Positions 1,277-34,472 of a DNA stretch of 34,472 nt are shown piece after piece. The notes under the pieces are model-generated. The model saw only the letters and a program-made list of their open reading frames with translations. It was not told where the DNA came from and did no database searches. This DNA comes from Acanthamoeba castellanii str. Neff. Its lineage: Eukaryota > Discosea > Longamoebia > Acanthamoebidae. How positions within the stretch are numbered: the stretch's first letter is position 1; every line of letters begins with the position of its first letter. Both the position numbers and the translations under genes were made by a program. The stretch is from NCBI RefSeq assembly GCF_000313135.1, contig NW_004457320.1:10197-44668 (forward strand). The letters are read 5' to 3'.

Positions 1277-4200
1277 ATGGCCACGAGCAGCGTAAGGTCG
1301 TCGCGCTGGGCGGCGGCGACCTGTTTCTTCTTCCTCCTCGCGACGTGCCTCCTGCAAGCGCGAGGTAGGCACCGCCCAAACCGCTACAGTTTTTCGATAT
1401 ATATCTCGACAGGCGCAAAACTGACCCTAACCCCTTGTTGTGGTGTACCGTGCCACTTCGTTCTCGCACCATGGTACAAGAAGCGACGACCAACGTCGTG
1501 GGAGGCGGCAGCACGTTTGCCGCGCCGCTGATGGACTACCTCAGCACCAACTACCAGGTACAAGAACGTACCTGGATCATCATCATTTTACTCCGCGCAC
1601 CATTTTTACAAGCGAAGACATTTTTCTTTTCCTCGTCGCCAGTTCGTCGACGAGGTGGTGGCGGTGAGCTACGACGAGTCCAGCTCAGACACTGCTGTTA
1701 TTACCTACGTTGGTAACTCAGGCATTCTCGTACGCCCACCCTTGATCGTTTCACCCATAATCGTTGATTCACATTTCTCAAAATTGAATGCTCGCCCCCT
1801 CCTCTCTGCCGACAGGACTTTGCCGTCACAGATGCAGGCTACCCCAAGGACGGTCTTAGGCCTTTGGCCTCACGATGCTGCCCATGATGGCCCAGCCCAT
1901 CGTGCCCATTTACAACCTGGGTCCCTCCGTTACCACTCTTGTACGCCCCTCCCCAAAGACAGCACCTGTGAGCTGTGTTGCGTGGTGCCTCACCGTGCGG
2001 GCACTTTGCCGTGATAGGTGCTGGATGGACCCACGCTGGGCGCCATCTGGGTGGGCGATATCGTGTGGTGGAACGACACGCGCATCGAGCAGCTCAACAA
2101 CGGCACCACGTTCCCTGCCGAGCGCATCCTCCTGGCCCGCTCGAATGACTCCATCGCCGGCATCTCCTGACCTTCGGCAACGCCATGAGCGCATTCAGTC
2201 CCGCCTTTGCCGCTTTGTGGGACTTAACGGCTACCGATCCCTGGGTCAACATTACTGGCATCCAGGACCACGTGACCAACACGGGCACCGCTGGCTCGGC
2301 CCAAGCCCTCTACGTCAAGGTGCTCTCTTGATGCTCTTCAGTTCTTTGCAGACTGGATTCTCTTCAACTGACCTCGTGCGTGCTTGCGTGTGCATCTTGC
2401 TTGGTTTTCTTCGGCATGCGCAGAACACTCCATACAGCATGGGCTACACCACGAGGTACGTCGCGGATCAGATTGGCGCCAAGTACGCTCTGATGAAGAA
2501 CAAGGCTGGTGCGTTCCTTCTCTCCAACCCAAATGGGGAAGCGGGCGACGTGTTGATCACCTGCGTTGACCACCACCCGTCCCACCATCATCCAGGCACA
2601 ACTGTTGACTCCACCATTGCGGCGGTGGAGTCAGCCCTCAACGAAGTGACCGACAACCTCGAGTCTGATTACCTCGGACTCGAGGTCATCAACGGCAACA
2701 ACTCGGCATCGTGGCCCATATGCATGGTCAGCTTCGTGCTGGTGAACGTGTCGAACAACCTGCCCGACTGCTCGTACATCAGGGCCTGATGGATTTCATC
2801 GCATGGTCGCAGCTCAACCCGCGCGTCATCGCCGCAGTCAAGAGTGATCTCAACATGGTGCCCTTGCCCTTCGGATACAAAACGTACACCTTTGCAAACC
2901 TGCCTCGTTCGTTGCTTGGCTGGAGGTCTCCATTGGAGGACTCCATCTTTTCTTGCAAGAAAACTAACAGACGGAAAACGGCCACAAAATGGGGACACAC
3001 ATTTCACAGGAAGATGATCGACTTGATGGGCCTGGTGACATGCAACGGCAATCGTGCGTTCGACGTGACGATGCTCATCGGCGAGGGCCTGCTCTTCAAC
3101 CTGTACCCGGCGTGGATGGATGCCTACTTGTCGTCCAACATCGAGCTCAAGTACTTTGAGAATCCTACATCGTTGGCGATTGCCGACTTGCAAGCTTGTA
3201 CGTCAACCATTGCATCACGATCGTTTCTTATGTTTGCTGGTGGTCTGATATGATGTAACCCCCCCCCATCCAATCGGCCTCACCGCAGATACCGTGGACT
3301 TCGGCGCCGTGACCGGATCGTTGGCTGAGTTCACCACCGCCACGAAGCGGGACAGTTCGGACGTGGTGCAGGTGCCGGTCGTGGCTTACGCCGTAACCGT
3401 TGGCTACAACGTACGCCCGCCATCCTTTTGATTTTTTTCAAAAACTAGAACCGCTCTCATACATGGTACCGGGGGGGGGCCTTTGTGCGTGCGCAGATCC
3501 CGGGGCTGCTTGGCAAGGGCGCGTTGGTGCTCAACCTCACCACGCTGGCTGACATCTTGCTGGGCACCGTCGGCACCTGGAACCACGCGGCCATCCGCGA
3601 GCTCAACCCCACGCTGACCAGTCTCCTGCCCAGCGCGCCCATCACCGTCGCCCTTCCCGGCCAGACTCCATTGATCATGCGAGTCCTGATCAAGTCGCTG
3701 CGCGCCGCGAGCGCTCTCTTCGACCAAACGGTAGCAGATCAGCTCCTCCTCCTCCTTCTCCAAGCGCGATTGTGTATTCTCCTCGCGTGATTGTGAGTAT
3801 CTCACAGGGTGTGTGTGTATGTGTGATCACTCTCATCGTTGGTCGTGAAGGTGGGTCCTGATGACGACAACCTGCACCTGCCAATCCAAGACACCGGACG
3901 ACTGGTCATCAACGTGAGCGACCCGACACCGACACTGTCCAGCACCACCAACGCCATGGGCGTGTGGCTGCACGAGAAGCTGAGGCTCAACCGCAAGCTG
4001 GGCGTGGCCGACTTCGTCAACCCGGCAGGCAACCGCGTGTCGCCAACGCGGAGAGTCTGCAGTCGGCCATCAACGATTTCAGCGCTGACGCGAGCGTGGT
4101 CGATCTCATCAATGGTTCGTCTGGTGGTCACACTCACGCGTGCAAACTTCTCGGGTGATGTGGGTTGCACCCCAATCCACCAATAGGCGCTTACATGACA

Positions 4201-7200
4201 ACCAACCAACCAACAAATCAGGTGCGGGCGCGAAGAGCTGGCCGATGGCGACCTATCACCAGTTCATCGTCCACCACACGACCATGCCCGACTGCGTCAA
4301 GGCGCGCGGTCTCGTCGACTGGATCTTCTGGACCCAGACCGACCCCACGCCCTGAACCTGGCCGCACAGTGCGTCGCGCCTGCCTGATCACACACACAGC
4401 AACTGCTCATCAGGTGGGCCGTTGTCTTGAACACAACAACAGGAACTATCTGGGAGTGCCGGGACAGTCGAAGGGCGCGCGAGCACGGCTGTTGGAATTT
4501 GTGGCGGGCATGACGTGCAAGGGCCAGCACGTGAGCTCCGTGTACGGCTGCATCTACCAAGGCACCCTCTGCTCCGACCACGGCCTGTGCAACCAGGACC
4601 TCCAAGGCACCGGCTCTTGCTTCTGCCAGACCGGCTTTGAGGGCGACCACTGCGAGGTCGCCATCGCAAGCAACACGAGCGACGTGCCGCTCGGGGCCAT
4701 CCTGGGCTCCATCATCCCGGCGGCGGTGATCGCGTTGGTGGTGCTGTGCTGCATCATCGTGGGCCTGGCGGTGTGGATGAAGCGGGCGGAGAAGGAGGAC
4801 GACTGGGAGGTGGACATGAACGAGCTGGAGATGGGCGAACAGCTCGGCACCGGCGGCTATGGTGAAGTGCGCAAGGCCATGTGGAAGGGCACGGAGGTGG
4901 CAGTGAAGATGATGATCTCGGAGAATGCCGGACGCGAGCTGGAGCGGAACTTCAAGGAAGAGGTGCGGGTGATGACGGCGCTGCGGCATCCCAACGTGGT
5001 GCTGTTCATGGCGGCATGCACCAAGCCGCCCAAGATGTGCATCGTCATGGAGCTCATGGCCCTCGGCTCCCTCTTTGACGTACGTTACTCCCACGCAACC
5101 AAAATTCCTACTCAAATGCTCCCGTTCCTAATTTGCGCACCTGCACTGTTGTGGTGGGCTGTGGTGGTGGGACCGCTGGGGGGGGGGGACAGCTGCTGCA
5201 CAACGAGCTGATCCCGGACATCCCGTTCGCGCTGCGCAACAAGATGGCCTACCAGGCGGCCAAGGGCATGCACTTCCTCCACTCGTCGGGCATCGTGCAC
5301 CGCGACCTCAAGTCCCTCAACCTGCTCCTCGACTCCAAGTGGAACGTCAAGGTGAGCGACTTCGGCCTGACCAAGTTCAAGGAGGAGATGAACCGCAACG
5401 CGGCCAAGGAGGTCCAGGGCAGCGTGCACTGGACGGCGCCAGAGATCCTCAACGAGGCCATGGATATCGACTACATGGTGGCCGACATCTATTCGTTCGG
5501 CATCATCTTGTGGGAGCTGAGCACTCGGCAGCAGCCCTACATGGGCATGAGGTACGCACGTCACTCCCTCCGCCATTCCCCTTAGAGTGGCCCGGTAAAG
5601 AGCGGGCCTGACGGGTGGTGGTGGTGCGCGGTCATGTGTCAGTCCGGCGGCGGTGGCAGTGGCGGTGCTGAGGGACAACACGAGACCGCCGCTGCCCGAA
5701 CTCGAGCAAACCTCGGTGCCGGCCGAGTTCGTGGAGCTCATCCGCAACTGTTGGCATCACGACCCGACCGTTCGCCCCTCCTTCCTGGTACCCTGCCGCC
5801 ACACCTGCCACGCACACATCACGCTTCCGGCCTTTGGCAAATTCGCTCACAACCAGGCGCGGTCGTTGTTCGGCGCCAACACGACACAGGAGGTGATGAC
5901 GCGACTGAGCGCGCTCGGCGGTGAGGGCGGTACGTCGTCGCTCACCCGGACCTCGACCTCGTCTTCATCGGGCGGCGGCGTTGATCGGTTGGGATCGTGG
6001 ACCACGCCATCGGGCGGGTCGGCGAGCAACACCAGCACGGGCTCCTCCAGCTCCGACGGTACGCGCAACGCCAGCCAACCAGGAGTCCCCCTCCGTTTGC
6101 GTTGTCTCACGTGAAAGTGGGGGGGGGAGCGTGCAGGGCGAGGGTCGGCGGCGTCATCCGGTGGCGGTGGTGCGGCGGGCGGGGTGCGCGCGCCAGAGGG
6201 CGAGATGGCGATCGTGTTCTCGGACATCACGCGCGCTGCCTCGCTGTGGGAGTTCAACGCCGAGGCCATGCGCGACGCCACGCTCCTCCACAACGACACC
6301 ATGCGGTCGCTGCTCAAGAAGCACCGCGGCTACGAAGTCGTCTTCATCCGGTACCGTCTCTCTCTCTCTCTTCAGATTACTGGACTTATTTGTTTATTTT
6401 TGTGTCTGTGTAACGAGGCAGGGACAGGAACAGCGGGGAGGGCTCGTTCTGCATGGCCTTCCAGAACACGACCGACGCGCTCGAGTGGTGCATGGAGGCC
6501 CAGCAGGAGCTCGTCAAGCTCGCATGGCCCGAGGCCCTGCTCGACCACCCGGGTGCCGCCGAGGAGTGGGGCGACGGACGACCGGGTGCTGTTCAAGGGG
6601 CTGCGGGTGCGGATGGGGGTGCACGTGGGGCAGCCGCGCATGGTGCGGGACCCGATGACAAGGCGCGTGGAGTACATCGGGCCGGTGATCAACGCGGCGG
6701 CGCGCATCACGGCGATGACGCACGGCGGGCAGATCCTGCTGTCGGGGGCCACGTTCGACAAGGTGCGCGGCGAGAGCGAGCTGGCGAGCAAGGAGGCCAA
6801 GCGCATGGTGTGCCTGGGCAAGTTCGAGATGCCCGACTCCCCCAAGGGTACCCCCCCCCCCGCCCGCCCCCGGTCATTGTGCCTCAACTCCCAACCCACG
6901 CACCGCACAGCAGTAACTTTCCCAGTCGACAACAATCTGATCACACGTGCGTATGCGGTGTGTGCGGTATGGGTGAACGACTTGTAGGGGCGAAGCTGTA
7001 CGAGCTGAAGCCGCGAGGCCTCGATGGTCGATTCTTCGGCGGCGTGTCGCGAGGCGGAGCACACAACAAGGACTCGGATCAGAGTCCCTCGTTGGACCAG
7101 CAGAGCGGGGGCAAGAGCCGGCAGGATGGAGACGAGCGTGAGGCGCGCGGCGAGGGACACTCCTCGATGTCGAGCGCGAGCAGCGATGGGGAGATGCAGG

Positions 7201-8332
7201 CGGTGGTGGGCGAGGGCATGATGTTCCAGGAGGACAACTTCCTCACGTCGGCCAACCTGTGCCGCTGGGTGATCGACTTCAACGAGATCGCCCTCGGCAA
7301 GCAGGTGCGCGCCACCACACCTAAACCAACCCTACCCAACGCAAGCAGCATGCGCTGACATAGAAGTGGTGGCGCGCAACAACAACAACAACAGGTGGGG
7401 CTGGGGTCGTACGGGGTGGTGTTCAAGGGCAAGTGGAAGGGCGTCGAGGTGGCGGTGAAGCGGTTCATCAAGCAGAAGCTGGACGAGCGGCGCATGCTCG
7501 AGTTCCGCGCCGAGATGGCCTTCTTGTCCGAGCTCCACCATCCCAACATCGTCCTCTTCATCGGTATGTTCCCAACCCCCCAACCCCCCCCTCGCGTCTC
7601 ACTTTGGTGCGCCATTTTTCTCATGAAACAACAAACACAGGGGCGTGCGTGAAGCGGCCCAACCTGTGCATCGTGACCGAGTTCGTCAAGAACGGCAGCC
7701 TGCGCGACATCCTGGCCAACAACAGCGTCAAGCTGGCCTGGGCGCAGAAGCTCAAGCTGCTGCACAGCGCGGCGCTGGGCATCAATTACCTGCACTCGCT
7801 GCAGCCGGTGATCGTGCACCGCGACCTGAAGCCGTCCAACCTGCTGGTGGACGAGAACATGAACGTGAAGGTGGCCGACTTTGGGTTCGCGCGCATCAAG
7901 GAGGAGAACGCCACCATGACCCGCTGCGGCACTCCCTGCTGGACCGGTACGCCCCTCGTCGCTTTCTTTCTTTTTCTTTTCTTTTTCTGTTTTTCGCATT
8001 CATTCTGTGCTCACATCTTGTTCGTCGTAATGGCTGCAGCGCCGGAGGTGATCAGGGGCGAGAAGTACTCGGAGAAGGCCGACGTGTTCTCGTTCGGCGT
8101 CATCATGTGGGAGGTGCTCACGCGCAAGCAGCCCTTTGCCGGCCGCAACTTCATGGGCGTGTCGCTCGACGTGCTCGAGGGTCGGCGGCCGGCGGTGCCG
8201 AGCGACTGCGGTCAGGCCTTCAAGAAGCTCATGAAGAAGTGCTGGCACGCCGAGGCCAAGAAGCGGCCGTCGATGGACGACGTCGTCACGCAGCTCGACG
8301 CTCTCCTTGGTCCCGACCACCACGCCGTCTAA
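1277..8332 (+). CDS. Receptor: PstS x2 - EGF - TM - TKL kinase - class III cyclase - TKL kinase
   Basis: Predicted type I membrane receptor of about 1,710 residues. Exons: 1277-1364, 1481-1557, 1643-1729, 1816-1940, 2018-2319, 2424-2883, 3010-3197, 3289-3410, 3497-3730, 3851-4114, 4222-4368, 4443-5079, 5193-5551, 5643-5787, 5890-6058, 6137-6350, 6422-6847, 6988-7304, 7395-7563, 7641-7946, 8040-8332. A signal peptide (1-28) precedes two periplasmic-phosphate-binding-like domains (VVGGGSTFAAPL and, about 350 residues later, LIGEGLLFNLYPAWMDAY). An EGF-like module (about 735-772) and a membrane span (about 780-809) follow. Kinase 1 (about 823-1078) has GTGGYGEV, VAVK, HRDLKS and DFGL. The cyclase domain (about 1157-1365) has VFSDIT and INAAARI. 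Kinase 2 (about 1447-1700) has GLGSYGVV, VAVKRF, HRDLKP and DFGFA. Both kinases look catalytically complete. Ligand unknown; binding of phosphate or another small anion is only an inference. Single-base frame slips occur near 1860, 2168, 2780, 4038, 4350 and 6567, so the ectodomain is either affected by assembly errors or decaying. Confidence 0.85.
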
Positions 8333-23012: not shown

Positions 23013-26000
23013 ATGGCAGGAATTGCGGGGCAAAAATTCATCTCGCTCCCTGCATACGAGGCGATGTGGGAGCAGGTGTTGGAGTTGACCCCCGAGTACG
23101 ATCCCAAGATATTGCGACGCTATGCTCCGGCCAGTAAGGAGGTGTATGGTGAAGTCAATCCGGTGCTGGTCAGCGACTTCATCAAGGCTCTTAAACTGTC
23201 GAGCCAAGATGTGCTCTACGATCTCGGCAGTGGCGTGGGGAATGTACAACCCCCTTCCCATGTGCGCCCCTCTATCGCAAGATTTAACAAAGTGGGTGTT
23301 CGGCTCCACAGGTCGTGCTGCAGGTAGCGGCACAGACCGGCTGTGTGGCCGTTGGCGTCGAGATTCGCAGCGAGCTCACTTCGATTGGCCAAGCCCTGCT
23401 CAAAAACTATCAGACTCTGGTACGTGCCCATCTTATTGAGCTTTGACAAGCTCGCGAGAATCCTTAGATCCCACATGTGACCCGCTCTCCAGTTGCGAAG
23501 AACCCACCTCTTGCGAGGAGAAGTGCAACTCGTGTGTGGGGACATTCTAAGCCCCGAGGTGGACCTCAGGTGCGTGGACCCCGATCATTTTGTTGCTCTC
23601 TCTTGCTCGGAGTTGTTGTAACGATGGCCTCCTCCTGTAGCAAGGCGACGGTCGTCTTCTTGAACAACTACTGCTTTCCACAGCACCTGGAGCAAAGCGT
23701 GCTCAAGAAATTCAAGGCGGGCCTCAAGAACGGAGTTCGAATCATCACGCTCAAGTATGCGTTCCTCCTTTGCGCCGTGTGCCTCACCATCATGCTGTGA
23801 CCATGATTGCTGGGAATCTAACGATGTTCTGCTAATCAGGGACTTTGCACCTCGATTCCGGCCTACAAGCACTCGCTTTGTGAAGAGCTATTGCCACCTC
23901 TTCAAGTTTCCCTGGCTCAAGTGCGCCAATCTCCTCGCTTCCCTCGAACTGCCTTTGTCTATGCCTAGCCTGACCCTTCGACTTCGCTACGGCCTCTACT
24001 TCAGGTGTCGCTCTTCGCCCGATGCAGTATCCTGGACGGACAAGAGCGTGGAGTACTTTATTTATCAAGTCGATCGCAACAACCTCGCACGGCAGAAGGC
24101 GTTCAAAGGTTCGTGGTCGCTTCCTGGTAGCGAAGGTTTTTGCCTTCGCTGTGTAGTAACCCCAGTTCTTCCACATTACGCAGAGGCAGCCAAGAAGGGG
24201 CTCCGGCTCAGCGACAACCTGGTGTGCTCGCTTAAGGACGGTGAGATCGTCGTTGAGGCGGCGGTGCCTCCTCCGGCTGCTAAGGGCAAAGGGAACGAAA
24301 GCGAAGAGAACAGTGACGTCGAAATAGGCGCTCTCATGCAGGCCGAGTTCCGAGGTGATTCGGCCAAGCACCTCCTTCACGTGCTGCGCGGGGGACACGC
24401 GCTCACCCAGATGCTCAAGTCCCTCGGCTGCGACACCGCCAAGTACGACCTCGCACCGACGTTGCTTGTCCTTTTTCCCGTACTTTGCTCATGTGCTCAT
24501 CTGATCATTGTCGTCTCATCTTTGCAGGTTGGAGGCGAGCAACCAGCGAGCAGGAGAAAAACTGAAGGAGGCAGAACTGAACGGCGATTTGGACAGGGCC
24601 GATGGTGCTCGACCGAGAAAAGCCGCAAGAAAAGGCCAACACTCAAGGTCCTCCGCGGCCAGTTCGGCGTCGTCTTCGACTTCACCGGCGGTGGTGCTCG
24701 TCGCTACCGACGACAGCTTTGAAGAGCTCATGGAGCGGTTTACAACGTGGCAAGCGGAGACCCGGAAGAAGGACGGCAAGCGCGGTCGAAAGGCCAAGCG
24801 ATCCAAGCCCGAAGACCAACGCGAAACGCCCGTCACCCTGGCCGCACTCAACGACGAACTGAAGAGGTGGGAGAAGGAGGTGAAGCTGTCCAAGAAGCGC
24901 TCCACCCCGCACAACGTGTCGACATCGGGAGGCAGCGAGTGGAAGGCTCTCGCCGCCGACTATGCCAAGTGGAAGCGACAACACGACACCCGCCAACACT
25001 CCAGGTAAGTCGCAACGCACCACGGTCAGTTAGTTCATCGCCCACCAATCGCTAACTGCAGCTCATACAGCAGTCCCTCGTTGGCGCCTGATGACCCGAA
25101 GACGGAAGAGGCGGCAGCGGTGGCCGAGCCATCGAAGAGTTCCAGTCTCTGGGACCAAGCGCCACCGACCACCGGCTCTACTCCCGTTATGGAGTACAGT
25201 CTGCCTCCGGGGTGGGTCCGAAAGATCAGGTGCGAGCCCGGCGGCCGGCGGCGGTACAAGTTCATCTCTCCCACGGGCAGAGTGTTCGTGTCCTTGAAGA
25301 GCGCGCGCGAGCACATCGATGAGGAACGGATAAGCCGCAAGCGCTCCGAGGACACTTCCGACTCGTCTCCCGCCACTACGCCGCCGACGCCGCGGAGATA
25401 CGCGAAGCGTCGATCGGAGGAACTGCGTCAACTCGCTACCGCGCCCAACAAGAAGCAACGAGAAACGAAGGAAGAGAAGGAGGAGGAGGAAAAAGAAGAG
25501 AAGCACGACGACGACAACGGTGACAAAGATGAAGACGGCGCAACCAGCAAAGACGGTAACAGCAGCATGGAAGCCAAGGCGAACGAGGAGGTCGAGGCAG
25601 GGGAGAGGAGGCAGGGACACTACACGCCCAACAACGCGAATGACCAGCTGCCGGAAGGGTGGCGCCGGCGCAAGCGGGGCCGGTACTGGACGTACACGAG
25701 CCCGGACGGGACCCTGTACCGATCGCGCAAGCAGGCGCTTCTCGCCGTTAATAGTCAGTCGGGCGTTCAGATCGACAGCGAAGAGCAGCAGCAGCGAGAA
25801 GAGAGCGAGAAGAAGGGCGAAGAAGACGAGAACAAGGAGGTGGGGCAAGCAGCTCCGGACGAGGGATGTGTACAGACGACGACGAAGAGGAGGCTGGCGC
25901 GACGATCGGCGCCTGCCGCGCTCGAGAGAAAGCGGAAGCAGGACATGCAGCGCGAGGTGGAGGCCAAGGAGGCGCAGGAAGAGCGCAGCAGGGAGGCGTC

Positions 26001-26361
26001 GGACACACGGGAGGATCGCTGCGATCGCGCCAACATCCGACGTCGGGTGAGCAATCCTGGACGAGGGTCCTCATCATCATCATCATCATCACGAGAAACG
26101 GACAAGAATGTAATCAACATCAGCGACGGAGAGGAAGAGAAAGAGGAAGAGGAAGAGAAAGAGAAAGAGGAAGAGGAAGAAAAGAAAGAGGCGGAGGAAG
26201 AGAAGCGGCCGCAGAAGAAGTCGAGGCGTCAGAGGGAGCTGGATCGCCTGCGCGGGTGGGATCAGTGGCGCGAGGACGAGCAGAAGCGAAAGGAGGAACT
26301 CCAGCGCAGGATACGCGAGCGGCGCTCTTCTTCCTCCACCCGCTCCGGCGATGACAACTGA
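23013..26361 (+). CDS. DOT1: DOT1-type histone H3K79 methyltransferase with two MBD/TAM-like domains
   Basis: Exons: 23013-23243, 23312-23419, 23493-23569, 23641-23754, 23840-24108 (probably split by an intron at 23906-24004), 24184-24442, 24528-25004, 25062-26361; about 911-944 residues. The N-terminal catalytic domain shows the DOT1 motifs in order: VYGEV (44-48), DLGSGVGN (70-77, SAM loop), VGVEIR (Glu near 94, ribose binding), FLNNYCF (Asn near 147-148) and DAVSWTDKSVEYFIYQVDR. It should therefore methylate histone H3 Lys79. A helical and charged middle region follows. Then come LPPGWVRKIR through YKFISPTGRVFVSLK, and LPEGWRRRKR through YTSPDGTLYRSRK, both matching the MBD/TAM fold core (GW, then SP-G-x3-RS). 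The C-terminus is a Glu/Lys/Arg-rich, low-complexity, probably coiled tail. No other DOT1 that I know of carries MBD-type modules. The ATG is the first one before the motifs. Confidence 0.87.
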
Positions 26362-26481
26362 AACACCTTCAGAGAGATCTGCCTTAAACGAAGAACCCAC
26401 CCATACTGTCATCATTACCATCACCATACGTGAAGAACCACCACACGCGCTCTCCGCGCTGACAGCGCGCACTCGCCGAAA

Positions 26482-26495
26482 TTTTGGCGCCAAAA
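26482..26495. promoter_or_regulatory. Perfect E2F-type palindrome TTTTGGCGCCAAAA
   Basis: A 14-bp perfect palindrome containing the E2F/DP core TTTGGCGC on both strands, about 50 nt before the predicted start of the DOT1-chromodomain gene and about 120 nt after the stop of the previous gene. E2F/DP sites drive S-phase genes across plants, animals and amoebozoans. Binding here is inferred from sequence only. Confidence 0.65.
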
Positions 26496-26544
26496 GACGA
26501 CCGGCAGATAGCGAACGCCATCAATAAGAATCGATGGGGAAGAG

Positions 26545-29500
26545 ATGAAGCGTCGTGGGATCACGCGAAGGCATCCAGGGAGGGGCTTAAACGATGCAGC
26601 GAATTCCTTATCTTCGTCGCCCTCGCCCTCTCTGAAAGCGCTCAGCAGGCTGGTCCAGACGACCATCCCTGGAGCACCAGCAGCAGCAGTGACGAAGGGG
26701 TGGATGGACACGACGGCCTTTACCGACTTGTGGCACGACATGTGCAGCCACATCTGCCTGGGTCAGTCCTCGCACTCTGTCGGGCTGCGATTTGTTGACG
26801 ATCTCATCAAGCGTCTCGCCCTCCAGCCCGAGGATGTCTTCTACGTCCTCGGCTCAGGCACTGGCGCAGTACGCCCCCCGCCTCCAACACCAATTAAACG
26901 AATAATTCAGATTATATGATTTCGATCTTTTAATTTATAAATTTATATCTATCTGGAGATTAAATTATATATTATTTGTTTGGGCTGCAGGTGGCCTTGC
27001 AGGTGGCGGCCCAGACAGGGTGCCGCGTGGTGGGTGTGGAAGGTAACAAAGATGAGCACAACACGGCCGTCGCTCTCCAGCAGGCCTTCAACGCCAAGGT
27101 ACACAGCTCTCCACGGTCGACCGCTCTACACGCTCTAACGGGTGAGAGAGACACGCCTCCCTTCGAAGGTGGCGGAAGGCAAGCGGTACAAGCAAGGCCG
27201 GGCAGAGTTCTTGTGCGTCGACGTACTCGAACTTGGTGCCGGCTGGCCTCGGGTAGGCACTTCTCTTTTCTCCCCCGCAAGAGAGCGTGTTCGACTGCAC
27301 ATAGAGCATGCTCCTCATCCTCTCTATCTTCTTGCTCTTCTCTTCATTGTTGCCAGCGAAGCGACGGTCGTCTTCGTCAACAACCTGACGCTCAGTCCGG
27401 TGCACAACCAACGGGTCCGCCGCGTGCTCGTCTTCAACCTTCAGCACGGTCCCACTCGCGTCGTCTCCCTCCAGTGCGCTTCCTCCGCCCAAGACTCTGA
27501 GCCGCGATTTGATGTTGATGAGCCAAGCTCATCGGCGTGTGCTGTGTCGCAGGGAGTTGGGCTATTCAAAGACCTTGGGTCCGTGCCAAAGGTGGGTTTC
27601 ACACTTCCTCTCTCTTGTGCCACGTGCTGAGTGTGCGTTTTGACTTGACTTGACTTGACTTGGCACCAATGTAGAATCGATTCGCCAGCGGAGGCGGTGA
27701 GCTGGACGAAAGAAAGCGTGCCGTACTACCTCTACCACGTTAATAGTTACGACCAATCTCTTCCTCTCCTTGTGGGCGGGTGAGTGGTGTTGCTGATAGA
27801 ACGCGCACGCACCACCGCACGCGCACCACCGCACGGCTACACAGAATCTGCGCTGCCGCCGCAGCACGGTGAGAAGGAGGACAGCAGGCGCAAGGCCAGC
27901 TACGCCGCCGTGGAGGTGGTGGGCGGCGGGGACGAAAAGGGCGAGGCCGCCGCGGAGTTGCAGCTTGACCTGGACGCACTCATTGCAGAGTATGAAAGCA
28001 AGGACGACTACAGCAGCCGCAAGTCGCGCAATCGGCGGTGCGGTCCGAAGGAACAAGAAGGAGATGAAGGAGAAGAAGGAGAAGGAGAAGAAGATGATGA
28101 TGAGGAGGAGGGATCCGACGACGAGAGCGACGGTGAAATCGATTACGAAAAGGAGATCGAGAAGGCGAGAAAGGAGCTCGCGGCCCGTAAGGAGCTTTAT
28201 CGCCAGCTGTGTGAGATAGAGAGGAAGAACCAGATGAGATGCATCGAACGCTCCGAACAGCGCAGAGCCAACGGCAACGACGTCGCGCAGTACGCCGCCC
28301 GCTCCTCCCTCTCCCTCTTTTCTTTTGCGTTCCAGCTTCGCTTTTGGCTTTTGTGAGCGCTCACGATGCGGTGCCAGGTACGACGCGGCGATCGACAAGG
28401 CGATGACAATGTTCCCCCCGGGCGGGCCGACCGTGGATGACCTCGAGTTCGTGATGGAGATGGTGCGCTACCGGGCCGAGGTGCGCCGGCGCATCAACGA
28501 AGCCGCCAGCCGAGAGTTGGAGGAGAAGCTGGAGCGGGAGCGCTTGGCCAAGCGCGCGCGGATCGCCGCCGAGGAGGCCGAGGCGGAGCGGGCGAGGCAG
28601 GAGAAGGTAAAGCAGTCGCGCGAGAGGAAGAGGAGAGCGAGGGCCGAAAGGCGGGAAAAGAAGCGACTCGCGAAACAGCGCCACGAAGCCGAGGTCCGCG
28701 AAAGGGAGCGACGCGAACAAGAGCGGCTTGAACGGGAGCGACTCGCAGCGGAGCGGCATGAAGCCGAACGGCTCGCACAGGAGCGACTCGAGCGGGAGCG
28801 GCTAGAAAGGGAGCAGAGGGAGCAGAGGGAGCGGGAGCTCGCCAGGACGGAGCGTCAAGAAGCAGCGCGACTGGAGAAGGAGCGGATGATGGAGGAAGAA
28901 GAGCGAGCCAGGGAGCAGGAGAGGGTGAACGAGGAAAGGCTGGAAACGGAGCGACGCGACATGGACGAAGAGGAAGGGGAGGAAGAACAGCGGTTGGCCG
29001 AAGAAGCGCTGAAGGAGGTGGAGAAGAAGAAGCAAAAGAAGAGAGAAAGGGAGAGCGAGGAGAAGACTTCGCCCGCCAAGTCGACTCGCGCGCCCATCGA
29101 TCGACCCAAGAGAAGGAAAACGCACAGTAACGACACCACCGCCAGCGACGCCAGCGCTGATGACGCCGGTCATGGGGAGCAGGAAGTGGTCGCCGAGTCG
29201 TCCGAACGCGTGTTGGGCGGAGCGGGAGAGGAAGAAGGGACGAAAGAGGAGGCCAAGGCCGAAGCCAAGGCGAAGGAGGTGGTCGCAGGCGAGGAGCCCA
29301 ACAGTGCCTCGCGCGATGAAGAGCAGCAGCAGCAGCAGGAGGAGGAGCAGTCGGCTGGCGACGGCCCGACTCCGCCACGTCGACGCGGCCCGACGCGGCA
29401 GGTGAAACGACGGAAATCGACGCCGGCCAGCGCGGGCGGTGCCGACAGAGAGAAGGAGAGGGAGAGGGAGAGGGAGACGTCGAGGAGGAAGAGCGTGCCT

Positions 29501-30012
29501 GCGGAAAAGAAGAAGAAAGAGCAGAGCAAGAAGAGCACCAAGAGGAGCACCAAGAAGAAGAAGGATGATGATGATGAAGGCAAAAAGAAGGAGACAAAGA
29601 CGAAGAAAAAGAAAAAGGAGAAGGAGGAAGAAGAGGTGGAAGAAGAGTTCGTCTACAAGGTGGAGCGGATCGTGGCCGAAAGGAAGCGGTACGGGCGGAT
29701 TGAATACTTGCTGAAGTGGCTCGGTACGATGCCTTCCCATTTCTCCCACCGACGCATTGCAATCAATTCGCCGTAGCCAACAGACCACGACACGACACGA
29801 CACGACACGACACGACACGACACGACACGACACGACACGACACGACACGACACGACACGACACATGCAGGCTATCCTGAGGAGGAGAACAGTTGGGAGCC
29901 AAAACGCAACCTCAGGGATGCTGATGGGACGCTCATGGCCACGTTTCGACGCGAACAGATGGAACAGCTCAAGCAGGAGCAGCAGCAGCTGCAGCAACAA
30001 GAGAAGGCATGA
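26545..30012 (+). CDS. DOT1-like paralogue with degenerate catalytic motifs and C-terminal chromodomain
   Basis: Exons: 26545-26868, 26991-27098, 27169-27252, 27357-27473, 27553-27591, 27675-27745, 27845-28289, 28378-29723, 29870-30012; about 891 residues. Exon 2 has exactly the length (108 nt) and phase of exon 2 in the upstream DOT1 gene, and motif order is the same: VLGSGTGA where DOT1 has DLGSGVGN, VGVEGNKDE, FVNNLTLS, and EAVSWTKESVPYYLYHVN. The YGE motif is missing and the SAM-loop Asp is Val, so activity is doubtful. A 500-residue Glu/Arg/Lys-rich coil follows, then a chromodomain: FVYKVERIVAERKR, IEYLLKWLG and YPEEENSWEPKRNL, with aromatic-cage positions (Tyr/Phe, Trp, Tyr) retained; chromodomains bind methylated histone lysines. 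The exon 3/4 junction is one base out of phase (GGG at 27251-27253), perhaps a homopolymer overcall. The start ATG is tentative. Confidence 0.82.
27640..27661 (+). repeat. TTGAC pentamer repeat (4 units) in intron
   Basis: Four tandem TTGAC units within the intron before the VSWT-encoding exon of the DOT1-chromodomain gene. Confidence 0.85.
29786..29864 (+). repeat. CACGA pentamer repeat (15 units) filling an intron
   Basis: Fifteen perfect CACGA units (29786-29860) plus a partial one, filling most of the last intron of the DOT1-chromodomain gene, exactly between the two exons that make up the chromodomain. It reads as TCGTG/GTGTC on the other strand, the same unit as the intron repeat at 12826. 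Confidence 0.95.
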
Positions 30013-30196: not shown

Positions 30197-31549
30197 ATGG
30201 GCGCCAACCTTAGCAGGGCAGGTGGTGGGAAGCGGGAGAAGCCCGCCGACTCGCCGCCGGCGCAAGAGACGAGGAAGTGCAACCGGCAGGTGGTGAAGGA
30301 CACACCGGCAGACCGGGCGCGTGCGGCGGCCAATGCCGCCCACAACGAGACCAACGCCCGCGACCCCGTGGCGTGCCTCCCCTTTGAGCTCCTGGCCATC
30401 ATATTCGACCTGGTTCTGGCGCAGGAAGACGCCCAACACGGCCGGTGCGCGGCCCCGGTCCTGCGCTACGCCACCGTCTCGGGCCACATCGTCCTCCAGG
30501 AGTTGAGCCTCGACTGGTTCGTGGGCCTCCCGCCCGAGAAGGGCACCATGTGAACGCTTCCCTTTTTGCAGGTGCACCAAGATCACGGACGCGACGGTGG
30601 AGCTCGTGGCGTCAAAGTGTGGCACGTCGCTGACTAAGCTCACTCTTCGTGTACGCACCTCTCAGTTGGCTCTCCAGCGCGTGGAGTGGGGGATCCCAAG
30701 CGCTGACATTCATCCAAACTCGGTGGTGCGTGGGTGGGTGGGTGGGGACCCCACGCAGGGCTGCACGCTGACCAACCGGTCGGTCTACGCGCTGGCCAGC
30801 TGCACCTCGCTCGTTGAATTGGACGTTGGCGAGTGTCACGGGAGTACACTCACCCTAACCCCCCCCCCTCTGCCCGCACACCACTCTGATCGCTCTGATC
30901 TTCTTTTCTGTTCTGGGTTTCAGCGGTGAACGAAGAGGGGGCGCTGGAACTAGCGATGGGCGTTCCCGGCCTGCAGAAGCTGTCGCTCGCCTCGAACCGG
31001 TGGCAGGTGGAGCCCATGGCGGCCCTGGCCAACGCGCTGCAGGCCGAGTGCTGGACCGGCCTGGTCGCCCTCGACCTCGCTCACGCTCGCTACTGCGGCC
31101 AGGTACCGCCACATTATGCACCACCACCCTCCACCACCATCTGTGTGAGCCTCACCATCAGCGCCTACAAGCAGGAAATTGAGTTAGTACTGGCCCGCCT
31201 CCCATTGCTCGAGGAGCTGTCGCTGCGTAGCTGGAGTGACAGCTCGCCGCTCATGGTGGATATCATCGCGGCCCGGCTGCCCAAACTGCGTCGGCTCGAC
31301 CTGGCCCACCGCTCGCGGATCGCTCCAAACGGTGGGGTGCAGCTGGCGGCCTGGAGTGGGCTCCTGGCCGGGTGCCCGCGCCTCGAGGAGCTCAACCTGG
31401 CGTGTCTGAGCGGATTCGAGCACAACCAGGGGCCGCAGGTCGTGCGGATGCTGATCGAACACCCGCCTATGAAGAAGCTCGGCATCTACCGATCCAACCA
31501 AGACTGGCGCGAACTCGCTCACGACAACCAGGTCGTTGTCGAGTTCTGA
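30197..31549 (+). CDS. F-box-like/leucine-rich-repeat protein, probably N-myristoylated
   Basis: Exons 30197-30549, 30572-30650, 30759-30843, 30924-31102 and 31175-31549 join in phase to 356 residues. After a Lys/Ala-rich N-terminus, ACLPFELLAIIFDLVL resembles the first helix of an F-box. Leucine-rich repeats of the cysteine-containing FBXL/AMN1 type follow (CTKITDATVELVASKCG, LTNRSVYALASCTSLVEL, LQKLSLASNRW, LLEELSLRSW, LRRLDLAHRS, LEELNLACLSG). F-box/LRR proteins are substrate adaptors of SCF ubiquitin ligases. The start MGANLS fits the N-myristoylation rule (Gly2, Ser6), which would place it at a membrane. One intron (30550-30571) is only 22 nt in this model, too short for a normal spliceosomal intron, so that junction is doubtful. 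It ends about 80 nt from the convergent TPR gene. Confidence 0.75.
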
Positions 31550-31631: not shown

Positions 31632-34472
31632 TCACTCCCGCGCAGGGGCGAGCTTGTCGATCCTGGCCTGGACCTTGTCGAAGACGGACGGCGGCACGGC
31701 GACGGAGGAGGAGGCGGAGGCGCCCTGGAGGAGGGCGAGCTCGAGCTGGGCGTGGGCCTGGGCGGCGGGCAGGTCCTTGTTGGTGATCTGCTCGCAGAGC
31801 TGCGAGAGGTGGAGGTGCGTGAGGGGCAGCGGGGCGCCGGTCTTGCGCTCCTCCCGCCGCTGGGCGTTGAGCAGCAAGGCCCGCGCCTTGTTGTACTCCT
31901 TGTTGTGCGCGCTCACCACGCCCTGCATGAACAGAGCCACCGGGTTGTCCTGTGCGCGTGCGTGTGTGCGGTGGTGTGTGCGTGTGCGGCCGCTGTGAGC
32001 TGATGGACAGAAGAGCAAGGCTGAGCTGGAGCCGGGCGTACGGGGCTGAGCTTGATCACTTGGGCGAGGGTGGACTGGGCGTCGCCCCACCTCTCGAGCG
32101 AGATGTAGAGGCGGGCCAGCTTGAGCAGGGCCACGCGCCGCGTGCTCTTGTGCTGCGGCTTGTCGCCGGCAAAGGTCTCGATGACCCGCCTGTAGCTGAA
32201 CGCTGCGGCGTCGGCCTGGTCTTCCTGCTGGTACAGCTCCGCCAGCTCGAACCACAACAGCGGAACGCGATCGCCTGTGGCCCCCAACATGTTAACATTC
32301 CATACCATCCTTGGAATGCAGTCTCTTTTATGGAGCCGTTGGCGCGCACCTTGGATTTTGATGGCCTCCTTGTACTCCCTGATGGCCAGGTCGACCTTCT
32401 TCTGGGCCAGGTGGCAGCGCGCCAGCTGTCGGTGGCAGAAGGCGTCGGCCTTCTTTTTGCCCTCGCCCTCCCCTTCAACATTCAAAAACAAAGGAGTCAG
32501 CCCGACATGCACACGCACCTCCGCACGCACGCACGCACGCACACACACACGCACACCACCGCACCACACGGTACAGCGCACACGTACCGGTGAAGGAGGC
32601 CGATGCCTCGTTGGCCAGCTGCAAGGCCTCGGCGACGCGCTGCTCGCCGTCCTGAAGCAGACAGCAATCGCTGATCGCCAGGCGCAGGAAGAACAGCTTC
32701 GCTTCGACGTCCCGCATCTCGCGGACGAGGCCGGCCTCGTCGTACCGCTCCTTGCCGGGATGCTGGGCCTTGGCCGCGTCCTTGTGCGTCTTGTGGAGGA
32801 GCTCGAGCGCCTGCGCCAACCGGGCCTTCTCCTCCGCGTGCAAGCCGAGCACGTGGCGCAGCACAGAGTCGGTGGAGCGGGCCTGGACGGCGGGCGCCGC
32901 CGAGATGAGGCACTGCGAGTACGAGGCCGCGGCGAACAGGAACCAGGAGTGCTTGCCGAGCGGGTCGACGTGGATCATCTTCGTCACATGGCTCAGCACC
33001 GCCTGGAAATGGACGGTGTCAATTGCTGCTGCTGCTCGATGTGGAGATGATGGAGTAGTACCTTGAGGCCACCGTCCCACCGAGCCCGAGGCACCGCGTT
33101 ACTTGCAGTGTCGTCCTGGGCCGCCGGGACGTTCCGGCCGAACTGCAGGAGGGCCTCCGAGATGAGCCGATGCCTCGCAACGTAGTCCTGCATGCACGCA
33201 ACCAACGGGTCAGGGAGATGATAAGACACCAGTCAGCGCGAGACAACGACCGCGAGGGTCCCTCAAGGGGAGGCGTAGCCGACCTGGAGCTGCGGGAAGG
33301 TGAGGTGGGAAGAGTTGAGGCAGAGGGTGCGCAGGGCGTCTCCGCTCTGGAAATAGTCCATGACCTGTTTTGCGAAACACAGCGACGAGGAGCTCGGTGG
33401 TGAGCGGTTCTGCGCGCACGGTTGGCCGCCTCGGTTTGGGGGCGTACCAGCCATGCCAGAGAGTCCCACGACTCCTCCTTGTCGGGGAACAGATGGTACG
33501 CCTTGCTCACCTGTCGCTTGGCCTCTTCGCTCTTGTTCTGGCGGGTGCGCGCCAGACACGCGACACACACGTGGCAACGTGTGTGAGACCCAAACGTTCA
33601 TAATGCCTTCGAGGTGCGAGTAGAGGACGTGTGCAGTGTACCTGCATCAGCGAGAGAACGGCTTGCATGGCGTAGAGATGAGCTGACGGCGTCTTGCTCA
33701 GCTTCTGGATCTGCTGGAGCGCGGTCTGCGCCACGGTGTAGTCCTCGATGAGCAGGCCCAGGCCGCTCATCATCTGCCAGCCGCCCAGGTAGCTGCCGTC
33801 CTTCTTCACGCTGCATACAACTCGCCCGGTGAGTCGGTGTGTCGTGTGTGTGTCGTGCGTGTTGTGTGTGTCGTGTGTGTGATGAATCGTACCACTGCAT
33901 GACGTATTTCTTGGCCTGGGTGACGTCGCCTTGGTGGTAGGCCAGCTGGGCCAGGAGGAGGAGCGTCTCCTTCTCGGCCCGCTGCAGCGGAGAGGCCGGA
34001 TCGGCGCCCGCGTTGGCCTTCTCGAGCTGGGCCAACAGCTGGCGATGCGCCTGCACGCTCTCCTCGAGCTGGCCGCCGAGGAAGAGCGCCCGGCCGAGGT
34101 CCCACGCGAGCGCCACGTCGCGCTGTCCGTTCGGCGAGGCGGCTCCCACCCCCGCCTCCTTAAGGTCTCGCACGGCATCCGACCACTTGCGCAGCCGCAT
34201 CAGCACCCGCGCGCGGTTGGCCAACACCGTAGCCGTCTTCTCCGCGTCCGTGAACCCGTCTGCGGCCGCTCCACCACGACGAAGCCGGTGGTGAGCGTTT
34301 GCACGGCAGTCAAGTCACCAGCCAATCCGAAGGGACAGAGAAGGGTGGGTACCGCTGGACTCGGAGAGAGGGATGACGGTGCGGAAGGCCTTCTGCCCGA
34401 GCTGCTGCTGTTTGGCGGCGCTGCCGTCCTTGGGCATCGGGGGGAGCAAGGCGAGCGCCTGCGTGAAGCAGC
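31632..34472 (-). CDS. Large TPR-repeat protein, 3' part (possibly SKI3/TTC37-like)
   Basis: Ten exons visible: 34472 (open)-34353, 34268-33893, 33810-33642, 33537-33448, 33364-33284, 33187-33062, 33002-32588, 32472-32350, 32274-32042, 31949-31632. All phases join, giving about 683 residues; the 5' end lies beyond the window. Helical pairs with TPR spacing run throughout, for example ARVLMRLRKWSDAVRDLKEA, LLLAQLAYHQGDVTQAKKYV, RQLARCHLAQKKVDLAIREY and LLKLARLYISLERWGDAQST. The protein is soluble, with no membrane span. Such long TPR solenoids occur in the Ski complex subunit SKI3/TTC37, in anaphase-promoting complex subunits and in transport factors. The TTC37 guess rests only on length and repeat style. 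It ends LAPARE. Confidence 0.8.
33835..33882. repeat. GTGTC/GTGTGT microsatellite in TPR-gene intron
   Basis: Mixed GTGT and GTCGT units in the intron between two TPR exons; the third intron in this window built from the GTGTC-type unit. Confidence 0.8.

Follow-up and report, generated by a model that had tools for sequence, protein, structure and literature searches.

A tandem DOT1 pair in Acanthamoeba castellanii: a predicted H3K79-type methyltransferase with MBD-like modules beside a degenerate copy that precedes an HP1-type chromodomain

DOT1 proteins are usually recruited to chromatin by partner proteins. DOT1 is the only enzyme known to write methylation at lysine 79 of histone H3 (H3K79; PMC10117894), and trimethylation of this residue is usually grouped with active euchromatin (PMC8383183). 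An earlier note on the DNA described here took DOT1 to be usually single-copy and without reader domains. Exceptions to the first point are the trypanosomes (PMC8576533) and seven Legionella species that carry several DOT1 genes (PMC10117894). The second point is broadly right among 84 homologues (see below) as judged by their precomputed Pfam assignments, except for a CUE domain in the DOT1 protein of Balamuthia mandrillaris. The two genes considered here, gene 1 and gene 2, are found in a stretch of 34,472 nucleotides of Acanthamoeba castellanii str. Neff (contig NW_004457320.1; hereafter the window), which corresponds to C202:10197-44668 in the 38.4-Mb genome of 250 contigs used for the whole-genome searches. 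A profilin encoded in that genome is identical, over 125 aligned residues, to profilin II in PDB 1f2k, which is from Acanthamoeba castellanii.

Genes 1 and 2 are neighbours on the + strand, and both exceed the gathering cut-off of the Pfam DOT1 family PF08123 (138 and 61.5 bits versus 23); the earlier note had proposed DOT1-type domains for the two. The best explanation of the locus as a whole, which we hold to be moderately probable, is an active, DNA-tethered DOT1 (gene 1) beside a pseudoenzyme (gene 2). Gene 1 would be the amoeba's working H3K79-type methyltransferase, and two C-terminal modules with a predicted MBD fold would tether its protein to DNA or nucleosomes, probably without canonical methyl-CpG reading. 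Gene 2 would have arisen by tandem duplication and then lost residues needed for S-adenosylmethionine (SAM) binding and catalysis. If expressed as one protein, it may be a pseudoenzyme that binds methylated H3 and acts as a scaffold or competitor, not as a second writer. The features of the two genes, in window positions, are as follows.

23013-26361 (3349 nt), + strand: gene 1, start codon to stop, nine coding exons
23013..24108, + strand: first six exons of gene 1, encoding the complete DOT1 catalytic domain (PF08123, identity to the public protein P0001, motifs)
23244-23311, 23420-23492, 23570-23640, 23755-23839 and 23921-24004, + strand: gene 1 introns within the span of exons 1-6
24184..25191, + strand: gene 1 linker exons (24184-24442, 24528-25004 and the start of 25071-26361), in the frame of P0001
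25192..25353, + strand: gene 1 module 1, DUF7028 with predicted MBD-like fold
25639..25764, + strand: gene 1 module 2, a shorter DUF7028 / putative MBD-like repeat, 31% identical to module 1
26362..26544 (183 nt), + strand: spacer from the gene 1 stop to the gene 2 start codon, according to the gene models
26545-30012, + strand: gene 2 in a read-through model, downstream of gene 1
26545..27771, + strand: degenerate DOT1-like part of gene 2 (PF08123 at 1e-16, four shared introns)
26545-26868, 26991-27098, 27169-27252 or further, 27357-27473, 27553-27591 and 27675-27771, + strand: DOT1-like exons of gene 2
27253..27356, + strand: counterpart of gene 1 intron 3 in gene 2 (homologous splice gives a frameshift; read-through is open)
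27865..29650, + strand: charged low-complexity tail of gene 2 (exons 27865-28289 and 28378-29723), open in the read-through model
29651..29949, + strand: HP1-type chromodomain of gene 2, split by intron 29724-29869 (PF00385 at 7.2e-14)

The gene 1 protein is represented in public data. About 5.8 billion proteins were searched with the first 270 residues of an eight-exon model of gene 1, restricted to proteins with a length between 0.55 and 1.75 times that of the query, and 84 were found at E values of 0.001 or better. The best of these is P0001, a public protein of 913 amino acids with a cluster of nine sequences and one contig of 4020 nt. The nine-exon model of gene 1 matches P0001 letter for letter; an 84-nt in-frame intron (23921-24004) is removed in P0001 and retained in the eight-exon model. 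Because of this identity, the catalytic and reader-like parts of gene 1 lie in one reading frame, and an independent entry shows the DOT1 exons connected to the exon for the reader-like modules. The P0001 contig, from a source marked 'lgn', would be a spliced transcript if, as seems likely, its gene caller models no introns; it is also long enough for genomic DNA across the 3349-nt gene. A comparison of P0001 with viral contigs matched 222 pattern stretches and gave no relative.

The catalytic domain of gene 1 matches PF08123 with an E value of 3.9e-40 across P0001 residues 30-224 (138 bits; 127.6 bits in the eight-exon model). With the eight-exon model, its best matches in the Protein Data Bank (PDB) are structures of human DOT1L (1e-24). 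When compared with 83 homologues, gene 1 retains the motifs YGE, DLGSGVGN, GVE, CGD, NN and VSW..Y. The near-invariant residues that are kept include Y45, G46 and E47; D70, G72, G74 and G76; E94; G129; N147 and N148; V212, S213 and W214; and Y221. Gene 1 agrees with the consensus at 37 of 49 near-invariant columns. This conservation suggests that the DOT1 domain of gene 1 is catalytically active.

The proposal in the earlier note that the two genes are tandem duplicates, made on the basis of a shared intron after the SAM loop, a common exon 2 length and motif order, stands and can be extended. Four introns are common to the two genes in place and phase (0, 0, 2, 2). The first follows the SAM loop, the second follows exon 2, the third is at the K/Q codon and the fourth lies eight residues ahead of VSWT. 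Exon 2 has a length of 108 nt in each gene. The catalytic parts share 29% identity (BLASTP 3e-20; 27% and 2e-16 with the eight-exon model), and none of 1000 shuffles, which averaged 32, equalled their alignment score of 181. Because both introns and sequence are shared, tandem duplication is well supported on sequence grounds. The later introns, three per model, differ between the genes. The tails show no homology above shuffles, in that 170 and 829 of 1000 shuffles score at least as high. Because the tails lack similarity, copying of one reader part from the other is unsupported, and the duplication itself does not explain why the readers differ.

The phylogeny of the catalytic domains, built from 18 rows, neither favours nor rejects gene 1 and gene 2 as sisters (p = 0.107 in the approximately unbiased test, p-AU). 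A clade of the two genes with the Balamuthia protein is likewise neither favoured nor rejected (p-AU 0.136), and the grouping of gene 1 with Balamuthia has support of 59/18.6. The gene 2 branch (3.65) is the longest in the tree and its placement is uncertain, so that the duplication may predate or postdate the Balamuthia split. In a whole-genome search, the PF08123 matches were confined to two exons of gene 1, with none in gene 2; the gene 2 protein gave six matches, all within gene 2, and missed gene 1. Neither search revealed a third DOT1 copy, and both miss split, divergent exons.

Gene 2 retains a recognizable DOT1-like domain (61.5 bits, 1e-16 in the read-through model) with degenerate motifs. 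The invariant aspartate of motif I is replaced by V at residue 101. The YGE loop is lost, its columns holding F-T-D in a poorly aligned stretch, and V stands in place of the CGD glycine. The GVE, NN and VSW motifs are still present. The exon after the K/Q intron is 39 nt in gene 2 versus 81 nt in gene 1, that is, 42 nt shorter. In view of these losses in motif I and the YGE loop, gene 2 is predicted to be catalytically dead and is probably not an enzyme.

The C-terminal end of gene 2 has the features of a histone-mark reader. Its chromodomain scores 51.9 bits (7.2e-14) for PF00385, the cut-off of which is 25.1, and its best PDB match is HP1 1kna (4.5e-13). Three residues (Y, W and Y) align with those that form the HP1 aromatic cage, and gene 2 thus appears to end in a genuine HP1-type chromodomain with an intact cage. 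The chromodomain and degenerate motifs ascribed to gene 2 in the earlier note are therefore both borne out. Because the cage is intact, the gene 2 chromodomain could plausibly be guided by histone methylation, as that note also suggested. No Pfam match was found in the charged tail (27865..29650), and no chromoshadow domain is among the four Pfam families listed. The last gene 2 intron contains a CACGA microsatellite at 29786-29863 (15.6 copies, 100% match).

The two C-terminal modules of gene 1 belong, as a pair, to DUF7028 (PF22970). In P0001 this family scores 31.6 bits (1.6e-7) over two stretches, above its cut-off of 27; singly, modules 1 and 2 remain below it, at 22.9 and 17.7 bits. In a whole-genome search, PF22970 matched only module 1 within the window, at an E value of 0.0126 that is under the cut-off. 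Structure models of the modules show the strand-strand-helix order of MBDs, and MBD/TAM domains occupy the top 36 (module 1) and top 24 (module 2) Foldseek ranks. A profile of both modules has MeCP2 as its best PDB match (0.0033), and the modules share the LPxGW...SPxG core of MBD/TAM domains. In these models an MBD-like fold is well supported for module 1 and weakly supported for module 2, whose top 24 MBD rows have a Foldseek probability of 0.77 or less and a best E value of 0.11.

The modules differ from MeCP2 where that protein would contact methylated DNA. At the methyl-CpG contact positions of MeCP2 (R111, D121, Y123 and R133), module 1 has E, gap, gap and V, so that none of the four is kept, and module 2 has gap, gap, gap and R, so that one is kept. 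The register places model residue 8 on MeCP2 residue 98, with module 2 placed through its alignment to module 1. The alignment of the shortened loop, which bears the other contacts, is uncertain, and module 2 has further arginines nearby. Because most methyl-CpG contact residues are absent, a role as a DNA-methylation reader is unsupported, as is canonical methyl-CpG recognition, and the guidance by DNA methylation envisaged in the earlier note is weakened. The modules may still bind DNA as such.

Several results weigh against an active, DNA-tethered DOT1 beside an expressed pseudoenzyme. Gene 1 deviates from the consensus at 12 of the 49 near-invariant columns, including an F-to-I change two residues past the CGD glycine, although several N-terminal columns among the 12 are probably misaligned. 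The earlier description of its motifs as intact thus applies to the core SAM-binding and catalytic motifs, but not to every conserved column. Module 1 alone scores 16.9 bits for the Pfam MBD family PF01429, under the cut-off of 21, and the Pfam search lists this family neither for module 2 nor for P0001 as a whole. The best Foldseek E values for the two modules are 0.025 and 0.11. What had been called two MBD/TAM-like modules is therefore upheld by predicted fold, weakly so for module 2, and by DUF7028 membership as a pair, but not by the Pfam MBD profile; profile searches find DOT1 in both genes and the chromodomain in gene 2. Over the whole genome, PF01429 did not find the gene 1 modules. 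The only place above its cut-off is on another contig (G000:C90:701199-701297, locus L003).

The remaining objections concern gene 2, which may not make a DOT1-chromodomain protein at all. Removal of 27253-27356, the counterpart of gene 1 intron 3, by the homologous splice sites gives a frameshift and stops, whereas reading through keeps the frame open. The read-through frame of this region has a third-position guanine-cytosine content (GC) of 0.35, in a small sample of 34 codons, compared with 0.71 and 0.84 in the neighbouring exons, and because of this low value the region looks like an intron. In-frame alternative GT/AG pairs exist as candidate splice sites. Database searches with residues 1-300 and with the last 663 residues of the gene 2 protein found no near-identical protein; each scored roughly 8000 length-restricted candidates, and an E value cut-off of 1e-30 applied to the second. 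The sole match was the Balamuthia protein (P0002), obtained with residues 1-300. Because exons 3 and 4 do not join in frame at the homologous sites and neither search gave a near-identical public protein, the existence of one DOT1-chromodomain protein is unproven. The earlier idea that each DOT1 domain is fused to a reader consequently holds for gene 1 through P0001, but one frame from DOT1 to chromodomain is lacking for gene 2 at the homologous splice.

A lesser but serious possibility is that gene 2 is a decaying duplicate, with a DOT1 part that no longer yields a full protein and a chromodomain that is either stranded or on a separate transcript starting downstream. The frameshift and stops at the homologous splice, the non-coding-like composition of 27253-27356, the lost catalytic motifs and the failure to find a near-identical protein for gene 2, when gene 1 has one, would all fit this. 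However, the exons after the problem join are open, with third-position GC of 0.61-0.84, the chromodomain is well conserved with its cage intact, and the in-frame alternative splice pairs exist. Given how few candidates were covered and the cut-off on the second search, the failure to find gene 2 among public proteins counts for little. Gene 2 may be a functional gene or a decaying one; a pseudoenzyme beside an active, tethered DOT1 is our preferred reading.

The chromatin of Acanthamoeba bears on a further reading. 5-Methylcytosine (5mC) is restricted to transposons, and N6-methyladenine (6mA) is found on expressed genes (PMC12695648). In A. castellanii Neff, hypermethylated regions make up 3.4% of the genome and are rich in H3K9me1/3 and, to a lesser degree, H3K27me3 (PMC12344493). 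DNA cytosine methylase domains are found on four contigs of the genome. The K79-equivalent lysine is kept in both H3 loci read, with AQDFKT and AQDYKT as the surrounding sequences; the latter is in an H3-like exon (L024, G000:C79:608269-608487).

The earlier note had suggested a heteromeric H3K79 writer guided by two kinds of mark. Gene 1 would recognize methylated DNA and gene 2 methylated histones, and H3K79 methylation would be brought to chromatin that bears these marks. Because 5mC and H3K9 methylation coincide (PMC12344493), MBD-type and chromodomain-type readers would meet in one compartment, and both would point to it if they work as their families suggest; such a meeting would be the strongest argument for the proposed writer. 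The cytosine methylase domains and the intact chromodomain cage would also be in keeping with such a complex. We nevertheless consider it quite unlikely: methyl-CpG contacts are mostly absent from both modules, gene 2 is unsupported as a protein, and H3K79 trimethylation is usually placed with active euchromatin (PMC8383183).

That the DUF7028 modules are WW-like or other protein-binding modules, not DNA binders, is a similarly unlikely alternative, for although LPxGW also occurs in WW domains and such domains appear lower down in the profile and structure lists, WW domains are not known to have the MBD helix that the strand-strand-helix models contain, and MBD/TAM domains hold the top Foldseek ranks of both modules.

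A bolder extension of the preferred reading, which we regard as doubtful, is that H3K79 methylation is targeted to heterochromatin, or bounded at it, by two readers built into a duplicated DOT1. The catalytic copy would carry tandem MBD-fold modules, and the dead copy with an HP1-type chromodomain would recruit or restrain it. If this were true, H3K79 methylation would be linked with the 5mC/H3K9me3 compartment instead of with active genes. A DOT1 with its own DNA-binding-fold modules beside a chromodomain pseudo-DOT1 would offer a natural test of direct coupling between H3K79 methylation and other marks. Because maps of 5mC and several histone marks are published for A. castellanii (PMC12344493), this organism is suited to testing such coupling.

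Other matches in the window were obtained from stop-to-stop frames, not gene models. On the + strand, kinase matches are located at 4162-5208 and 7364-8329, with a nucleotide-cyclase match between them (6115-6984); the first kinase frame also has EGF-like matches just below cut-offs. Gene 2 is followed by a leucine-rich-repeat stretch on the + strand (30899-31546) and TPR stretches on the - strand (31916-34314).

Judged by titles and partial abstracts, none of the papers found on DOT1, H3K79, chromodomains or MBDs in Acanthamoeba, protists or Amoebozoa describes these genes. No paper on DUF7028 was found in the literature searched, and the terms dot1 and chromodomain are absent from the main text of PMC12344493, PMC12695648 and PMC4053784. 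Among known systems, gene 1 has the same catalytic domain and motifs as DOT1/DOT1L, but differs by its C-terminal tandem MBD-like modules. In the Pfam assignments of the 84 homologues, DUF7028 is present only in P0001 and CUE only in P0002, and neither PF00385 nor PF01429 occurs in any. One homologue, P0004 (666 amino acids), appears by eye to have a second degenerate methyltransferase-like stretch before its DOT1 domain, with the best Pfam DOT1 stretch at 447-640.

The closest named relative of gene 1 is Balamuthia P0002, which is 48% identical to it across 93% of the query domain. Like the gene 1 protein, it is long (1295 amino acids) and has accessory domains, but these are CUE domains (PF02845, 7.1e-12, two stretches) and neither MBD-like nor chromodomains. 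CUE domains are of a ubiquitin-binding type, and those of P0002 are possibly a built-in reader of ubiquitylated H2B. Trypanosomes likewise have two DOT1 paralogues in one genome, DOT1A and DOT1B; however, both are catalytic and produce different degrees of methylation (PMC8576533), whereas one copy here has lost catalytic residues.

The gene 1 modules share their predicted fold and LPxGW...SPxG core with the MBD/TAM domains of MeCP2, AtMBD5/6 and BAZ2A, but fall under the Pfam MBD cut-off, have a shortened loop and have lost most methyl-CpG contacts. The gene 2 chromodomain resembles those of HP1/CBX proteins in its match to 1kna and its aligned cage aromatics, but here it is preceded by a DOT1-like domain that has degenerated and by a long charged tail. 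From the sequence comparisons, the tandem DOT1 pair is real and its domain architecture is unusual.

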